Positions 4,217-40,198 of a stretch of 41,369 nucleotides of DNA are shown here, in pieces. The notes beneath the pieces are model-generated. The model ran no database searches. It had not been told where the DNA came from and saw nothing but the letters and a program-made list of their open reading frames with translations. Source of the stretch: Eubacterium sp. Its GTDB lineage: Bacteria; Bacillota_A; Clostridia; Lachnospirales; Lachnospiraceae. Location of the stretch: positions 1-41,369 of the forward strand of contig JAFVEX010000040.1 in NCBI GenBank assembly GCA_017475785.1, given 5' to 3'. Numbering within the stretch: the stretch's first letter is position 1; every line of letters starts with the position of its first letter. A program made the position numbers and the translations under genes.

Positions 4217-4285
4217 GAACAAAGTCCGCAAGCGGACTTCAGCTCCCTCACCCTTCTCACTCATGAGGAGAGCTTGCGGGACTTT
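4217..4285. repeat. Dispersed palindromic repeat, copy A
   Basis: About 69 bp that align with 11220-11285: both contain AAGCGGACTTCA, CTCACTCATGAG or CTCACTCATGAGG, and end in GGACTTT. Within copy A, CAAAGTCCGCAAGC is the inverted repeat of GCTTGCGGGACTTTG (one extra base), and GTCCGCAAGCGGAC is itself a dyad. It lies in the gap between the 4-hydroxybutyrate dehydrogenase and abfD genes. No coding role. Confidence 0.75.
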
Positions 4286-9269: not shown

Positions 9270-9327
9270 AGGACCTGTCACGAAATAAATCAAACAAATT
9301 GCGCAGAATGATTTCGTGACAGGTCCT
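9270..9327. repeat. 17-nt perfect inverted repeat (second of a pair)
   Basis: AGGACCTGTCACGAAAT (9270-9286) and ATTTCGTGACAGGTCCT (9311-9327) are exact reverse complements around a 24-nt loop. It follows the 9205-9265 repeat after four bases. It could be a transcriptional barrier or a mobile-element footprint. Confidence 0.85.
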
Positions 9328-9366: not shown

Positions 9367-9918
9367 TTAAATCTCCCGTAAAATTTGTTCCAGACGCTCT
9401 GCCAGAAACAATTGTCCCCTCTCTGTATACATCACCGTTACATACTCGTTGCCGGGCATTCCCCCTTCTCTTGCATACAGGCCGGCTTCTTCCCCTTTCT
9501 CTGTTGGAACCCAGTTTTCCTTTCCACCCTCATTAATCACTTTTTTCTCAAGAAACCCATTAGCTCCCAGCCACCTGTTGATTGCGGCAGCGGAAGGTTT
9601 TTTAACATTTTTATCCTTCACCGGTTCTGCAAACTGATTCAAAACATGTGAAATAGACTGGTCCTCCCTGTAATGAAACTGATTCAATATCTCGATGGGG
9701 AACGGTTCTCTTGGCTGCGAAGACCTTTTTCCGACAATCCCATCGTTTTCTTTTGTCTCCCTCAGAACATCAAGTACAAAATGAAGGCAGCGAATCACAT
9801 TGGGATTGTTAATAATTTCATCATCTGTCTCCTCATTGTTAAACGGATTTCTTCCATCTGCCATTCTGCTGAAGTAAACGATTGCTGTTTCCAGCTTCTT
9901 CATGTCAAACTCTCTCAT
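9367..9918 (-). CDS. Unrecognised 183-residue protein coupled to the Rpn nuclease gene
   Basis: I do not recognise a named family. The N-terminal part (MKKLETAIVYFSRMADGRNP, NNEETDDEIINNPNVIRCLHFVLDVL) is helical. The C-terminal part (KPSAAAINRWLGANGFLEKK, WVPTEKGEEAGLYAREG, EYVTVMYTERGQLFLAERL) looks like a winged-helix or phage-regulator-like DNA-binding fold, inferred from the helix-turn-helix-like spacing only. The ATG overlaps the upstream Rpn stop codon in an ATGA, so translation is coupled and the two products probably act together. An alternative start is Met6. No signal peptide or membrane segment. It ends 40 nt from a strong inverted repeat. It could be a regulator, immunity partner or accessory factor of the nuclease. 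Confidence 0.72.
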   Translation of the reverse strand: MREFDMKKLETAIVYFSRMADGRNPFNNEETDDEIINNPNVIRCLHFVLDVLRETKENDGIVGKRSSQPREPFPIEILNQFHYREDQSISHVLNQFAEPVKDKNVKKPSAAAINRWLGANGFLEKKVINEGGKENWVPTEKGEEAGLYAREGGMPGNEYVTVMYTERGQLFLAERLEQILREI

Positions 9919-10916
9919 GAGATATCACCTCCGCTAACCCGGAGTCTGTACTGCAGCAGATGTTCCTGTGCATCTCTTTCTGATAGATTAAAATGTCGAA
10001 TCAGTTTCTGAACAATCTTTTCATCTGGTGTGTTCTCGTCCAGATTATCTGCTATCAGCACCTGGATTCCATGATCAACTCCCTGCTGAAGTCCTTGCTG
10101 GAGTCCTTGCTGGAGTCCTTGCTGGAGTCCCTGTCTTTCACCATTCTCAAATCCTGCTTTTTGTCCCTGCGTAAAACCTTCTTTCTCGCCTTTGGTGAAA
10201 CCCTCTTTTTCACCCTGTTCAAAACCGGCTTTCATTGCAATATCAAAAATACTCATTTCCACTTTTTCCCATTCTTCTGATTGTTTTACCTCCCGGACAA
10301 TTTCATCCAACTCTACAAGCGTATCTCCCTTTTTCGGGATGTCCGGATTATCCAGTGTGCTTCGCTTCATATACTGCAGCAGACTGATCAGATCCTCTCT
10401 GCCCCGGAGGCTTGTCATATTTAAAAAGATCTTTTCGGCACCGTCACCCAATTCCAGGTCAGGAATTTCTCTGCAGACATTCCTGAACGAATACATTGCA
10501 AGATCCATACCAAAAATATCTTCCTGTGTGATAAAAATAACATAAGTTGGCGGCAGGTTTTTATACTTTGTCTTTTTCCCGGCTTTTAAAACGGGGGTGT
10601 CAATCATGCTCTGATAAAATCTCGAACGCCTTCTGATTTCATCCTGCCTGGCCTCGTTCTGCATTTCTACAGAAAACTGTGTTTTATCAGTCGCTTCTCC
10701 CCATGCATCCAATCGAATCGCTCGTTTCTTTTCCCGGTTTAAAATAACCTCCTCTACCTTCACTTGCTTCAAATCTACAGAATATCCCATGATCGTACTG
10801 ATAACAATCTCATACGCACGCTTGATTTTCATTGTAGAGAGAAATAATGCAAAGTCACTAAGATTCAGGTCTGTCTCTGACCACGGAAGATCGATGGTGT
10901 TTCGCTTATTTGACAT
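9915..10916 (-). CDS. Rpn-family PD-(D/E)XK nuclease / putative transposase-like protein
   Basis: 333 residues. The N-terminal 200 match Rpn/PDDEXK nuclease-family proteins: Asp70 in AIRLDAWGE and Glu84-x-Gln86 in FSVEMQNEARQDEIRRRSRFYQ give the D...ExQ variant of the catalytic core, followed by LPPTYVIFIT. Residues 230-285 are Gly/Gln/Glu repeats (units like GEKEGFTKGEKEGFTQG, then QGLQ repeats) that probably form a helical or flexible linker before a C-terminal helical domain. The family is linked to RecA-independent recombination and, in some cases, phage defence. A strong AGGAGGT site precedes the ATG. It overlaps the downstream gene by 4 bases. Hairpins fill its leader. In its repeated region the DNA is a perfect 12-bp tandem array. 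Confidence 0.85.
   Translation of the reverse strand: MSNKRNTIDLPWSETDLNLSDFALFLSTMKIKRAYEIVISTIMGYSVDLKQVKVEEVILNREKKRAIRLDAWGEATDKTQFSVEMQNEARQDEIRRRSRFYQSMIDTPVLKAGKKTKYKNLPPTYVIFITQEDIFGMDLAMYSFRNVCREIPDLELGDGAEKIFLNMTSLRGREDLISLLQYMKRSTLDNPDIPKKGDTLVELDEIVREVKQSEEWEKVEMSIFDIAMKAGFEQGEKEGFTKGEKEGFTQGQKAGFENGERQGLQQGLQQGLQQGLQQGVDHGIQVLIADNLDENTPDEKIVQKLIRHFNLSERDAQEHLLQYRLRVSGGDIS
10086..10133. repeat. 12-bp tandem repeat inside the Rpn gene, four units
   Basis: Units CTGAAGTCCTTG, CTGGAGTCCTTG twice, and CTGGAGTCCCTG encode the QGLQ repeats. The period is a multiple of three, so slippage changes linker length without breaking the frame. Confidence 0.9.
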
Positions 10917-10941
10917 ATATATACCTCCTGTCGTTAATGGC

Positions 10942-11219: not shown

Positions 11220-11285
11220 GAACAAAATCCACAAGCGGACTTCAACTCCCCCATTCCCTCACTCATGAGGGGAACTGCGGACTTT
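11220..11285. repeat. Dispersed palindromic repeat, copy B
   Basis: Aligns with copy A at 4217-4285 over its full length with scattered differences; the internal dyads are less perfect. The gap 10917-11443 holds only this repeat, the hairpins listed and AT-rich filler; no gene is supported in it. Confidence 0.75.
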
Positions 11286-11443: not shown

Positions 11444-12563
11444 TTATGCCCGATTTCCCAGCGCGATCCATTTCAGATACGCGTTGATAAATCCGTCCAG
11501 ATCACCGTCCATGACGTCCTGAACCTGTCCTTTTTCGAACTCTGTCCGCAGATCCTTTACCCGCTGATACGGCTGCATGACGTATGAGCGGATCTGGTGT
11601 CCCCAGGCAATATCGGTAACCTCGCCCCTGATATCTGAGAGCTTCTCCGCGTGCTTCTCCATCTCCAGCATCAGCAGCTTGGACTTCAGCATCTGCATGG
11701 CCTTGTCCTTGTTCATGTGCTGGGAGCGCTCATTCTGGCAGGTTACGACGATTCCTGTCGGAAGGTGTGTGATACGGATCGCGGAGGACGTTTTGTTGAT
11801 GTGCTGTCCGCCGGCGCCGCTGGAACGGTACGTATCCACACGGATATCTTCGTCCCGCACCTCAATATCAATATCCTGCTCAATTTCCGGCATGACATCG
11901 CACGAGACAAAGGAGGTCTGCCGCTTGCCGTTCGCGTTGAACGGGGAAATCCGCACAAGGCGGTGAACGCCTTTTTCTGATTTCAGGAAACCGTAGGCGT
12001 TTGTCCCGTTGACCTGGAACGTTACCGACTTCACGCCGGCCTCATCGCCCTCGAGGAAATCCAGTTCCTCAAGCTTAAAGCCTTTTCTTTCTGCCCACCT
12101 GGAGTACATGCGGTACAGCATGCCGCACCAGTCCATCGCCTCGGTGCCGCCGGCACCCGCATTGAGTTTCAGGATGGCATTACAGCTGTCGTACTCGCCG
12201 GAGAGCAGGGTCTTGATCGAGATCTCATCGAGACTCTTTTTAAAATCTTCCAGCATCTCCCTGATCTCCGGAACGACGGAGTCATCGTCCTCCTCCTGTC
12301 CCATCTCGATCAGGGTTTCCATATCTTCTTTTTGTGTCACCAGCTTCTGATATGTATCCCGGTCATCCTTCAGGCTTCCCAGTTCTTTGGTCTGCGCCGT
12401 CGCCTTGTCGGGGTCGTCCCAGAAGGTTGGCTCCTCCATGTTTCGCTCTATTTCCTGTATCCTTCGCTCCTTGTTAGCGAGGTCAAAGTGAATCCCTCAC
12501 TTCCACGAGCGGCTGCTCGAGCGCAGCAAGTTCTGTCTTGAACTGCTCCAGCTCAACTACCAT
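11444..12563 (-). CDS. prfB: Peptide chain release factor 2, expressed through a programmed +1 frameshift
   Basis: Translation starts at 12563 (MVVELEQFKTELAALEQPLV) and reaches an in-frame TGA at codon 27 in CTT-TGA-C. Reading then continues in the +1 frame as DLANKERRIQEIERNMEEPT to the stop at 11444, giving 372 residues, the normal RF2 length. The anticodon-mimic SPF (206-208) and the catalytic GGQ (251-253) are present, so it recognises UAA/UGA and hydrolyses peptidyl-tRNA. Because the slip depends on slow decoding of UGA, RF2 controls its own synthesis. It is the third gene of hpf-secA-prfB, a standard Bacillota order; the gap to secA holds a structured element. Confidence 0.97.
12482..12500 (-). 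promoter_or_regulatory. prfB +1 programmed-frameshift site
   Basis: On the minus strand the slippery CTT (12488-12486) is followed by TGA (12485-12483) and C, the conserved CTTTGAC heptamer. An AGGGA Shine-Dalgarno-like element lies just upstream in GTGAGGGATTCA. Skipping the T at 12485 restores the long frame. Confidence 0.95.
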
Positions 12564-12596
12564 TCGCTTCACCTTCTTTCTTTTGTGAATATTTTA

Positions 12597-36639: not shown

Positions 36640-38395
36640 AATCGCCGCTTCCTCCGATGCTCCAGTCCGCGCTCGCGTTCTGAAGCTGTACCATCCGCCG
36701 GAACATTCCGTCCTCTCTGCCAAGGAGTTCCGCGGGAGTTCCCTGCTCTGTGACTTTTCCCTCCGCCAGTACGACAATCTGATCCGCCGCCTCGACCGTG
36801 CGCATGCGGTGCGCGATGACCAGTACCGTCTTATTTGCCAGCAGGCGGGAAAGTGCTTCCTGCACTTTCGTCTCGTTTTCCACGTCGAGGGAGGCCGTCG
36901 CCTCATCCAGCAGCACGATCGGCGCGTCCTTCAAGAGCGCGCGGGCAATCGATATTCTCTGCCGCTCCCCGCCGGAGAGCTTCGCGCCGTTTTCTCCGAT
37001 CGGCGTGTGGTACCCCTCCGGAAGCTTATCGACGAATTCATCACAATTTGCGGCAGCCGCAGCCACGCGAACCTCTTCGTCCGTCGCCCCGTGCTTTCCA
37101 AGACGGATATTTTCCATCACGGTGTCGTCAAACAGCACGACATCCTGAAACACCATGGAATAGTCGGTCAGCAGCGCTTCCGGATCCACCGTGGAGATGT
37201 CGACCCCGCCGACCTCTATCGTTCCTTCCTGGATATCCCAGAGTCTCGCCGCCAGCCGCGCGCAGGTGCTCTTGCCCGATCCTGACGGTCCTACGAGCGC
37301 CGTCACTTCTCCTTCTTTTGCCGTGAAGCTGACGCCCCGGAGCACCTGCTTGTCGTCGTATGCGAACCCCACATTTCTGAACGTGATATCGTGGCCATCG
37401 GGTGTAAACGTATCTGCCCCTTCCGCCGTCTCTGAATCATAGATCTCCGTCAGGCGGTTTGCTGACACCTGCGAGAGAAACATCTCGGCGATCAGCGCGA
37501 GGCTCTGATCAAATGGCGCGTAAACGCGTGTGATGATCAGCAGGAACATGAAAAACATCATGAAGTTGATTTTTCCCGAGAGAATCAGCCCTGCTCCGGT
37601 CAGGATCGTTGTCGCGACGCCGAGGCGCATGATCACACTGGCGCCGTTCACAAACAGTCCCGTGACCAGCTCTCCCCTGATCATGACCGCTTCGTGATTG
37701 TCAATCTTGTCATAAAGGCCTTTCAGATAACGCTTTTCCTGATTGGTCGCGTGAATTTCACGGATGTTTTCAAGGGTCTCCTGAATGCCGTCCGAAACCT
37801 TCAGCGCAGCCTCTTTGGTCCGTCTGGAATTCCGCTCTGCTATTTTTCTGCTTCCAAACAGCAGCCCGAAGGCCACCGGGACGCCCCACAGACACGCAAT
37901 GGCAAGCTTCCAGTTATAAATGAGCAGCACGACAGCGATCAGCGCCGTGGAAAAATAGGAACCGTAAAGATACCCGAGGCAGTGAGACCAGACATGTTCC
38001 AGACGGTTCACATCTCCCATGATCGTCTCCGTCAGATCTGCCAGATCCCGCTTTCCGAAATAACCGAGCGGAAGCCTGCGAAGACGCTCCGCAAGGCTGA
38101 TTCTGACTGCTTTTACCTCCCTGTAAACCAGGCCGTAGGTCGCCCTGTACTGCTGGAAATGCGTGATCAGCGACAGCACGACAAATGCAGCCGTCAGGAG
38201 CAAAAAGAATCCCAGGCCGGGGAGCGGCGCTCCGTCCGTCAGCGTATTCATAAACCGGCCCATCATAAGGTACAGGATCCCGATGCCTCCCATTACCACG
38301 AGATTTACGATGATTGTCCAGACCATGCCCGCCTTCACATTCCTGACGCCCTGGTCTGTCAGCGCATACTTATGCTGAAATTCTTTTCCAAACAT
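36638..38395 (-). CDS. ABC exporter, second half of a heterodimeric pair
   Basis: 585 residues: a six-helix exporter membrane domain (1-325) and an ATPase domain (330-585) with Walker A GPSGSGKST (369-377), Q-loop in MVFQDVVLF, signature LSGGERQR (473-480), Walker B IVLLDE with catalytic Glu498, D-loop SLD and H-loop AHRMRTVEAAD. It starts directly after the upstream ABC gene's stop codon (TAA then ATG), so the two subunits are translationally linked. It probably exports a drug, peptide or siderophore-like compound. The TetR gene upstream suggests an induced efflux system. Confidence 0.93.
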   Translation of the reverse strand: MFGKEFQHKYALTDQGVRNVKAGMVWTIIVNLVVMGGIGILYLMMGRFMNTLTDGAPLPGLGFFLLLTAAFVVLSLITHFQQYRATYGLVYREVKAVRISLAERLRRLPLGYFGKRDLADLTETIMGDVNRLEHVWSHCLGYLYGSYFSTALIAVVLLIYNWKLAIACLWGVPVAFGLLFGSRKIAERNSRRTKEAALKVSDGIQETLENIREIHATNQEKRYLKGLYDKIDNHEAVMIRGELVTGLFVNGASVIMRLGVATTILTGAGLILSGKINFMMFFMFLLIITRVYAPFDQSLALIAEMFLSQVSANRLTEIYDSETAEGADTFTPDGHDITFRNVGFAYDDKQVLRGVSFTAKEGEVTALVGPSGSGKSTCARLAARLWDIQEGTIEVGGVDISTVDPEALLTDYSMVFQDVVLFDDTVMENIRLGKHGATDEEVRVAAAAANCDEFVDKLPEGYHTPIGENGAKLSGGERQRISIARALLKDAPIVLLDEATASLDVENETKVQEALSRLLANKTVLVIAHRMRTVEAADQIVVLAEGKVTEQGTPAELLGREDGMFRRMVQLQNASADWSIGGSGD

Positions 38396-40198
38396 TTATT
38401 TCACCTCCCCTGCCGCAATGCGCCACTTGACCGCTTTGTTGTAATCCGCCCACATCCGCGCGTACAGTCCGTCCGCGTCCAGCAGGCTCTCATGCGTTCC
38501 ATCTTCCGCAATCCGGCCGTTTTCCAGCACAATGATCTTATCCGCGCCTGTTACCGTAGACAGCCTGTGGGCGATCATGATCACAGTGCGCCCTCTTGTC
38601 AGCGTGGCAAATGCCTTCTGAATCAGCGCCTCGTTTTCTGGGTCGGCGAAGGCCGTCGCCTCGTCAAGGACGATGATCGGAGCATCCTTCAGAATCGCTC
38701 TGGCGAGCGCGATTCTCTGCTGCTCCCCTCCGGAAAGGTACGTGCCCTCTGTTCCGATGACCGTATCCATTCCATCCGGCAGCTTCTCAATGATATCACT
38801 GCACTGTGCTGCGCGGAGTGCCTCCAGAACCTCCTCCCGGGTAGCTTCGGGGCGCGCGGCACGTACATTTTCGAGAATCGAGGTCTTAAAGAGATGATCA
38901 TTCTGAAATACGAACGCGATGTGATCCATCAGTACACGGGAATCGATTTCCCGCACGTCCACACCTCCGACTTCCACGCACCCGGAGGAAACATCCCAGA
39001 ACCGCGGAATCAGGCTCGCGGCCGTTGTCTTCCCTCCGCCGGAAGGTCCGACCAGCGCCACTGTCTGCCCCGGCTGCACGTCAAACGAGACATGGCTGAG
39101 CGCCGGAATGTCCGCTCCCTCATAGGAAAATGTAACATCCCTGAACGCAATCCCGTTGTTCTCGGGCACCTTGGGATTCCGGCTCTTCTGCAGTACCGGC
39201 GCGCTCATCACGTCATTAATCCGCCCCAGTGCCGTGCCGGCCAGCATCATGCCGCTGGCCGCGAACATGATCTTTGCGAGTGCTGTGGATATGATGGCCG
39301 AGAAAACTGCGTAAAACGCAAAATTGGTGACAAAACCGGCGAAGTTTCCCTTTGCCAGCGCGCCCGGCGCAAGCAGAAGCGCCGCAGGAACCAGAAAGAT
39401 AAACGCACCCTCCGTAAACGTCAGGTTGACCGACTGGGGAAGGCGGCACGCGACATCGGTATATTGCTCCGCCTTGCCGCTGTAATCTTCGATGGCCTCC
39501 TTGAAGGCTTTAAAGGAATAGACGGTCTGCTGGAATATCTTAACGACCGGAATTCCTCTGACATACTCCGTGCCCGCCTTGCTCATCGTGTCCTGCGCCC
39601 TCTGGTACTCCATCATCAGCTGCGCGTTTTTTCCGCCCATCATTGTGAACATCGCCGCAACAGAAATCACCGCCGCGAGAAGACACGCCAGTCCCATGCG
39701 CCAGGCAAACACAAACATCAGCACCAGCATGGAAACAAACATCGCGACAGTTCCCGCGATATCCGCCAGGTTGTGCGCGAGAAGCGTCTCGGTCTCGGCA
39801 GCCGCGCCGTCCAGCCGGTTCCGCAGAAGACCCGAGGCATTGCTGTCAAAAAAACCGAGCGGCGCCTTCATCAGGTGCGCCATTCCTTCCTTGCGGATAT
39901 TGGCAGCCGTCCGGAAGGCGGCAAGATGCGTACACATCAGCGCCGCAAAATAAATGACAATTCCGGCAACCGCAAATCCAAATGCCATCCAGCCATAGGA
40001 CGCGACACCTGTCGCTTTCGTCCATTCAGGCGCGGCGGCAATCAGGTCTCTCGCGGCCAGCCAGATCAGCACATACGGCATCATTCCCAGAATCATGGCG
40101 ACCACGGAGAGTCCCAGCCCCAGAAACGTGAGCCCCTTGTAATTCCCCGCATATCCCAGAAGGACAGCGAGATCACTTTTCTTCTTTTCATTCTTCAT
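38396..40198 (-). CDS. ABC exporter, first half of a heterodimeric pair
   Basis: 600 residues from the ATG at 40198 (GAGGAGG upstream; the longer reading to 40264 has no support). Membrane domain 15-325, ATPase domain 345-600: Walker A GPSGGGKTT (384-392), VFQNDHLF, signature LSGGEQQR, Walker B IIVLDEATAFADPE and H-loop AHRLSTVTGAD. Both subunits keep the catalytic Glu and His, so both ATP sites could be active, unlike many heterodimers with one degenerate site. The substrate is unknown. A terminator separates it from tetR, and I could not identify its promoter with certainty in 40199-40320. Confidence 0.93.
   Translation of the reverse strand: MKNEKKKSDLAVLLGYAGNYKGLTFLGLGLSVVAMILGMMPYVLIWLAARDLIAAAPEWTKATGVASYGWMAFGFAVAGIVIYFAALMCTHLAAFRTAANIRKEGMAHLMKAPLGFFDSNASGLLRNRLDGAAAETETLLAHNLADIAGTVAMFVSMLVLMFVFAWRMGLACLLAAVISVAAMFTMMGGKNAQLMMEYQRAQDTMSKAGTEYVRGIPVVKIFQQTVYSFKAFKEAIEDYSGKAEQYTDVACRLPQSVNLTFTEGAFIFLVPAALLLAPGALAKGNFAGFVTNFAFYAVFSAIISTALAKIMFAASGMMLAGTALGRINDVMSAPVLQKSRNPKVPENNGIAFRDVTFSYEGADIPALSHVSFDVQPGQTVALVGPSGGGKTTAASLIPRFWDVSSGCVEVGGVDVREIDSRVLMDHIAFVFQNDHLFKTSILENVRAARPEATREEVLEALRAAQCSDIIEKLPDGMDTVIGTEGTYLSGGEQQRIALARAILKDAPIIVLDEATAFADPENEALIQKAFATLTRGRTVIMIAHRLSTVTGADKIIVLENGRIAEDGTHESLLDADGLYARMWADYNKAVKWRIAAGEVK

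Follow-up and report, generated by a model that had tools for sequence, protein, structure and literature searches.

An Rpn-family nuclease gene overlapping the gene of a putative stand-alone RecQ-tail relative at an accessory site in Lachnospiraceae

In RpnLS toxin-antitoxin systems, the antitoxin is encoded within the nuclease gene itself. The published description reports that RpnS, the antitoxin, is made from an internal start in Rpn genes of E. coli and in a C. difficile Rpn gene, that four-residue repeats begin 8–20 residues past this start, that second rpnS copies occur downstream of some rpn genes, and that E. coli RpnA cleaves DNA without any further protein (PMC10327210). Lachnospiraceae RecQ helicases supply a second point of comparison: they carry, after HRDC, a tail domain of approximately 115 residues, and both of the tail-bearing proteins that were scanned contain DEAD, Helicase_C, RecQ zinc-binding, RQC, and HRDC domains. 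Here, we describe a locus in a contig of Eubacterium sp. (Lachnospiraceae; JAFVEX010000040.1), the whole 41,369 nucleotides of which are referred to as the window. Its Rpn gene shares with the E. coli systems RpnA–E and RpnP2 the nuclease family, the D/E/Q core, the four-residue tail repeats, and an RpnS-like C-terminus (PMC10327210). Unlike them, it has an internal RpnS ribosome-binding site that appears degraded, and it is coupled to a downstream gene whose product, hereafter the partner, is a different protein from the second RpnS copies reported there.

Both genes, and the features within them, are read from the minus strand. The nuclease gene (RpnL form; 9915..10916) encodes 333 residues from an ATG start behind the Shine-Dalgarno sequence AGGAGG (10924..10929; duplex energy with the anti-SD of −11.6 kcal/mol), and the partner gene (9367..9918), also with an ATG start, encodes a 183-residue protein comprising an N-terminal module and a RecQ-tail/KilAC-like winged helix. 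As the initial annotation had read from the sequence, the Rpn stop and the partner start share the tetranucleotide ATGA (9915..9918). That annotation took such tight coupling to mean a fixed ratio of the two products, a deduction that does not hold, as a separate, strong Shine-Dalgarno sequence for the partner lies within the 3′ end of the Rpn gene (GGAGGTG, 9926..9932; −10.8 kcal/mol against the anti-SD), so that partner translation need not follow Rpn output exactly. The corresponding pair of the sister species Eubacterium sp. RGIG4369 (locus L001, genome G001) also has a 4-nt overlap, and the gene order hpf-secA-prfB-Rpn-partner is common to both. Between the window and L001, dN/dS is 0.057 for Rpn and 0.061 for the partner, with dS near saturation; both genes are under purifying selection. 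Given these ratios and the recurrence of the overlapping genes at one location (secA-prfB-Rpn-partner) in both species, the pair is intact, overlapping, and selected, and represents more than a chance association. DNA conservation with L001 also reaches upstream of the prfB ATG given in the open reading frame list (12440-12593), which would be in line with an N-terminal portion of RF2 that is translated through a programmed frameshift.

The window gene is almost certainly an Rpn nuclease. Its product matches PF12784 (E 3.6e-9; 37.1 bits, above the curated cut-off of 27.4) and TIGR01784 (E 7e-19; 68.7 bits, above the curated cut-off of 52.1), profiles of the family also listed as COG5464, and has 1910 homologues at E ≤ 1e-3. 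The core residues D70, E84, and Q86 (10659..10709; codons 10707-10709, 10665-10667, and 10659-10661, respectively) do not vary in any of the 121 sequences of an alignment comprising the query and the best 120 listed of the 1910 homologues; both the family and the core named by the initial annotation are thereby borne out. The helix-strand order of the structural model matches PD-(D/E)XK by inspection, at a mean pLDDT of only 70. A 12-nt tandem array of 4.2 copies (10080..10130; Tandem Repeats Finder) encodes the four-residue repeats of the Rpn tail, which are variable, and the protein measures 333 residues in the window versus 306 in L001. On its sequence, the nuclease is placed in the RpnLS anti-phage toxin-antitoxin family. 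Residue 45 (codon 10782-10784) is Tyr in the window and Glu in 116 of the 121 aligned proteins.

The published intragenic antitoxin had no place in the interpretation offered by the initial annotation. From internal Met221 onward, the window Rpn comprises an RpnS-like C-terminal region (9918..10256) whose position matches that of the separately translated RpnS (PMC10327210), and Met221 is kept in 121 of 121 aligned homologues. The Shine-Dalgarno sequence 5′ of Met221 (10257..10276) is degenerate, with GAA as the Glu217 codon (10266-10268). When Shine-Dalgarno strength at this position was compared across 36 distinct Rpn genes (the window, L001, and 34 others), the duplex energy was −4.2 kcal/mol in both the window and L001 and −9.1 to −11.9 kcal/mol in 28 of the 34 others; four more had a weak site (−6.0 to −6.6 kcal/mol), L070 lacks a start codon at the internal position, and L107 is cut by a contig end. 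The second Rpn gene in the genome of L001 (L063) has a site of −9.8 kcal/mol. Genome G228 contains both families but apart, with the partner overlapping YhcG, and its best-matching Rpn (L069) retains a site of −10.2 kcal/mol.

In relatives, the internal site looks to be selected at the nucleotide level, since Glu217 is encoded by GAG in all 14 close relatives (GAA in the window and L001) despite GAG making up just 193 of the 487 Glu codons across those genes; the neighboring Glu215 is GAA in 13 of the 14, and codon 218 begins with G in every one, making TGGGAGG. Synonymous recoding reaches the observed site strength with P 0.03–0.44 per gene among the 28 strong-site genes, so the weight rests on consistency across genes, which are themselves related. 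In the partner-linked lineage, by this comparison, the internal ribosome-binding site for RpnS appears to have been degraded. A coupled downstream gene was looked for at the four weak-site loci and found at none of them, indicating that the internal site can weaken without a partner; moreover, as site loss and partner gain are confined to one lineage, they form a single coincidence, equivalent to one evolutionary event. The window Rpn has a possible alternative internal start at TTG203 (−8.1 kcal/mol), and L001 has a nearby ATG at −5.8 kcal/mol. Across loci L065-L093 and L106-L115, a conserved internal Shine-Dalgarno sequence precedes a start codon approximately 143–154 residues past the catalytic Asp. 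This arrangement, in which the Shine-Dalgarno sequence of the close relatives reads TGGGAGG, is a signature by which RpnS starts can be recognized in Rpn genes of the Lachnospiraceae; GAG at Glu217 and TGGGAGG together offer a codon-level means of locating them.

The partner is best described, from sequence comparison and structure prediction, as a stand-alone relative of the RecQ C-terminal tail with an extra N-terminal module, whereas in RecQ the tail is part of the helicase. Its residues 65–183 (9370..9726) make up a predicted winged-helix domain homologous to the approximately 115-residue RecQ tail (hhalign probability 99.5), and an HMM built from 24 tails, with partner copies excluded, matches 38 of 38 partners, whereas 76 control sequences made by shuffling or reversal gave no match at E ≤ 10. 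Among the partner-family proteins, P0004 is 79% identical. Residues 1–62 (9733..9918) form a module of two helices with the motifs ADGxNPxNN and NNPNVIRC in the alignment. Searching 299 family genomes with a model of this module gave six matches, namely five full-length genes (strong) and one weak fragment (E 0.0076), and no RecQ-length frame. The winged-helix end suspected in the initial annotation is supported by the AlphaFold2 model (mean pLDDT 89), by a weak match to the KilAC domain of phage antirepressors (PF03374, E 0.0041, 17.9 bits, below the curated cut-off of 25.3; phrog_63, E 3.9e-5), and by the top two structural matches in BFVD, a phage repressor-domain protein (E 0.003) and an antirepressor (E 0.007), which have probabilities of 0.99 and 1.00 yet TM values of 0.23–0.40. 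The Pfam scan of the partner found no other antirepressor domain, and comparison with PADLOC models gave no match at E ≤ 1.

Five genomes of the genus of L001 (G001, G300, G082, G301, and G302) were searched for the pair. It is present as a whole in G001; G300 has the last 29 partner residues at a contig end beside a hydrolase gene, in DNA 90% identical to L001; in G082, prfB is followed directly by that same hydrolase gene, leaving the site unoccupied; and G301 and G302 have other genes after prfB, the partner search of both genomes being empty. By this presence and absence within one genus, the pair forms an accessory unit whose position behind prfB is constant, in keeping with the accessory status proposed for it earlier. 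The inverted and dispersed repeats that had been read as flanking an island do exist, but neither delimits an island by itself: they consist of one palindrome (9270..9327; 22-nt arms at 9270-9291 and 9306-9327, 91% identical), which lies where the partner gene and an Fe-S protein gene converge and is terminator-like judging from its position only, and one dispersed repeat (11220..11285) with a second copy at 4217-4285 (83% identity in a 69-column alignment; blastn of the window against itself). The same self-comparison shows a 132-nt direct repeat with 74% identity at 36869-37000 and 38627-38758.

Away from this site, the two families rarely meet. Among 34 tabulated partner loci (L001-L031 and L096-L098), just one neighborhood, that of L001, contains an Rpn, and two Rpn profiles run against 40 partner-bearing loci (36 distinct places: the 34, overlapping copies, and L131-L132) again matched only L001. 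Conversely, partner models run against 47 Rpn-search loci, some overlapping at one place and mostly with a flank of about 1.4 kb, matched only the two covering the L001 copy itself. Of 299 family genomes, 93 match the Rpn protein P0002 (E ≤ 1e-20), five contain a full-length partner, and G001 alone has the two adjacent.

The neighbors that the partner family does have point to a role around DNA-processing enzymes. Among 59 direct-neighbor proteins, AAA_19 occurs in 10, UvrD-helicase in seven, RQC in five, and HHH_RecD2 in three; among 83 genes three to four places away, UvrD-helicase and YhcG_C each occur once in the 25 families listed. UvrD-RQC helicases with a zinc ribbon adjoin the partner in L009, L024, L029, and L097, as does one in L006 whose zinc ribbon matches only at E 0.001. 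Other neighbors include AddA (L017), RecD2 (L013), an SF1 helicase with DUF2726 (L022), and the nucleases NERD (L021) and YhcG/DUF1016 (L096). Neighbors of 304–309 residues in L015 and L016 had no Pfam match, and the one in L016 matches the PADLOC candidate PDC-S68 and the HEAT_CxxC_PDDEXK model. A same-strand upstream gene overlaps the partner in seven of the 34 loci and is Rpn, YhcG, or UvrD-RQC in all seven, five of which belong to one ortholog group. Several of the contexts are defense-like according to PADLOC, which identified AbiEii as well as type IV restriction in the vicinity of L097. These neighborhoods support the view that the family often accompanies DNA helicases and PD-(D/E)XK nucleases; loci that share a synteny group do not count as independent cases, and many partner loci lie beside genes without a DNA role (HydF, SurE, HD, transporters).

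Our main reading, to which we assign a probability of roughly one half, is that an RpnLS-family nuclease gained a coupled RecQ-tail accessory, which would regulate or target Rpn and partly replace RpnS restraint. An Rpn at an accessory site behind prfB has acquired a translationally coupled second gene in one Lachnospiraceae lineage. Its product, presumably recruited as a helicase/nuclease accessory protein, may use its winged helix and N-terminal module to bind DNA, its enzyme, or both, and may control where or when the nuclease acts; it may also have come to restrain RpnL, at least partly, in place of RpnS, this last step being suggested by the degraded internal site. The parts of this reading differ in strength. 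The partner is quite likely a nucleic-acid-processing accessory, and it is somewhat more likely than not to work with the window Rpn. That it replaces RpnS is put forward only tentatively, and the RpnS region still present within the window Rpn counts against it. Rather doubtful is the broader proposal that RpnS was replaced by a coupled protein of the helicase/nuclease toolkit, with the RecQ-tail family providing a subunit for regulation or targeting that can be exchanged among RecQ, UvrD-RQC, RecD2, AddA, DruE, Rpn, YhcG, and NERD.

A simpler account holds that an ordinary RpnLS gene and an unrelated DNA-repair accessory neighbor share one accessory unit, with the overlap reflecting compact gene order only. 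The occurrence of the partner family beside many different genes and the lack of a partner at every other Rpn locus examined agree with such a downstream hitch-hiker, but we consider it unlikely because the 4-nt overlap and the partner Shine-Dalgarno sequence have been kept despite near-saturated synonymous divergence, and because a nuclease or helicase at seven of seven overlapping loci is not expected by chance, even if one ortholog group accounts for five. A similarly low probability attaches to the partner being a DNA-targeting (specificity) subunit and not a restraint, whose winged helix would recognize DNA structure and load Rpn, the loss of the RpnS site then being neutral; its RecQ-tail homology and the many DNA-processing enzymes beside the family, several in defense contexts, would fit this role, although E. 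coli RpnA is reported to cut DNA alone (PMC10327210). The initial annotation favored a dedicated two-gene pair of the toxin-antitoxin or defense kind, and a classical form of it, with the partner as dedicated protein antitoxin and operon autorepressor, would be compatible with the operon order, the winged-helix end, and an RpnS start that this lineage appears to have lost. We regard it as improbable: with one Rpn match among 40 partner-bearing loci, the partner occurs mostly without an Rpn neighbor, adjacency is found in G001 only among the family genomes, and partner relatives accompany repair helicases, the domain itself being fused to RecQ. Very improbable, and disfavored here, is a degraded phage antirepressor gene captured beside Rpn, as the weak KilAC match, the antirepressor-type structural matches, and full-length relatives with 31% identity in two gut ‘Bacteriophage sp.’ records have to be set against an intact gene under purifying selection with a specific N-terminal module, an empty partner search of viral_contigs and plasmids, a RecQ-tail match far stronger than that to KilAC, and bacterial-type defense genes on both of those records.

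With a regulating or targeting RecQ-tail accessory as the preferred reading, the pair can be regarded as a natural experiment on the loss of a gene-within-gene antitoxin. It also draws attention to an unnamed protein family linked to the RecQ tail and to repair and defense enzymes, a link that makes the function of the RecQ tail testable through stand-alone proteins. Among the papers listed in searches of the open-licence literature, none describes by title or abstract the partner family, a link between the RecQ tail and KilAC, or the loss of an RpnS start, and RecQ, KilA, and Rpn are absent from the main text of a paper on YprA helicases (PMC12458937).

Several other arrangements of the partner family were observed. 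A recurrent Lachnospiraceae UvrD-RQC helicase of approximately 1100 residues overlaps a downstream partner-family gene by 10–19 nt (L006:2465-6567, L009:77-3960, L024:2711-6552, L029:2636-6492, and L097:2351-6234). These pairs share the partner family with the window locus and differ from it in the enzyme: in place of Rpn stands a helicase that contains a Zn-ribbon and an insert resembling a nuclease. The five helicases have in common an inserted stretch (E...TPDFxI...YIEHFG) that, by our assignment of the motif, presumably resembles a PD-(D/E)XK nuclease. No published description of these pairs was found in the open-licence literature, and they are candidates for an uncharacterized repair or defense helicase-nuclease. 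On the two gut ‘Bacteriophage sp.’ records, the partner relatives lie immediately behind the DruE helicase of Druantia I (L132:7361-11466) and with PtuA/PtuB (Septu) and a UvrD helicase (L131:162-5049), as identified by PADLOC. At four loci (L007, L008, L010, and L019), the gene downstream of HydF, a GTPase of hydrogenase maturation, includes a partner paralogue with a C-terminal extension. Finally, relatives of 326–332 residues (L098:2190-3179 and P0137-P0143) consist of the partner part followed by approximately 140 more residues, which in L098 look RNase H-like by eye.
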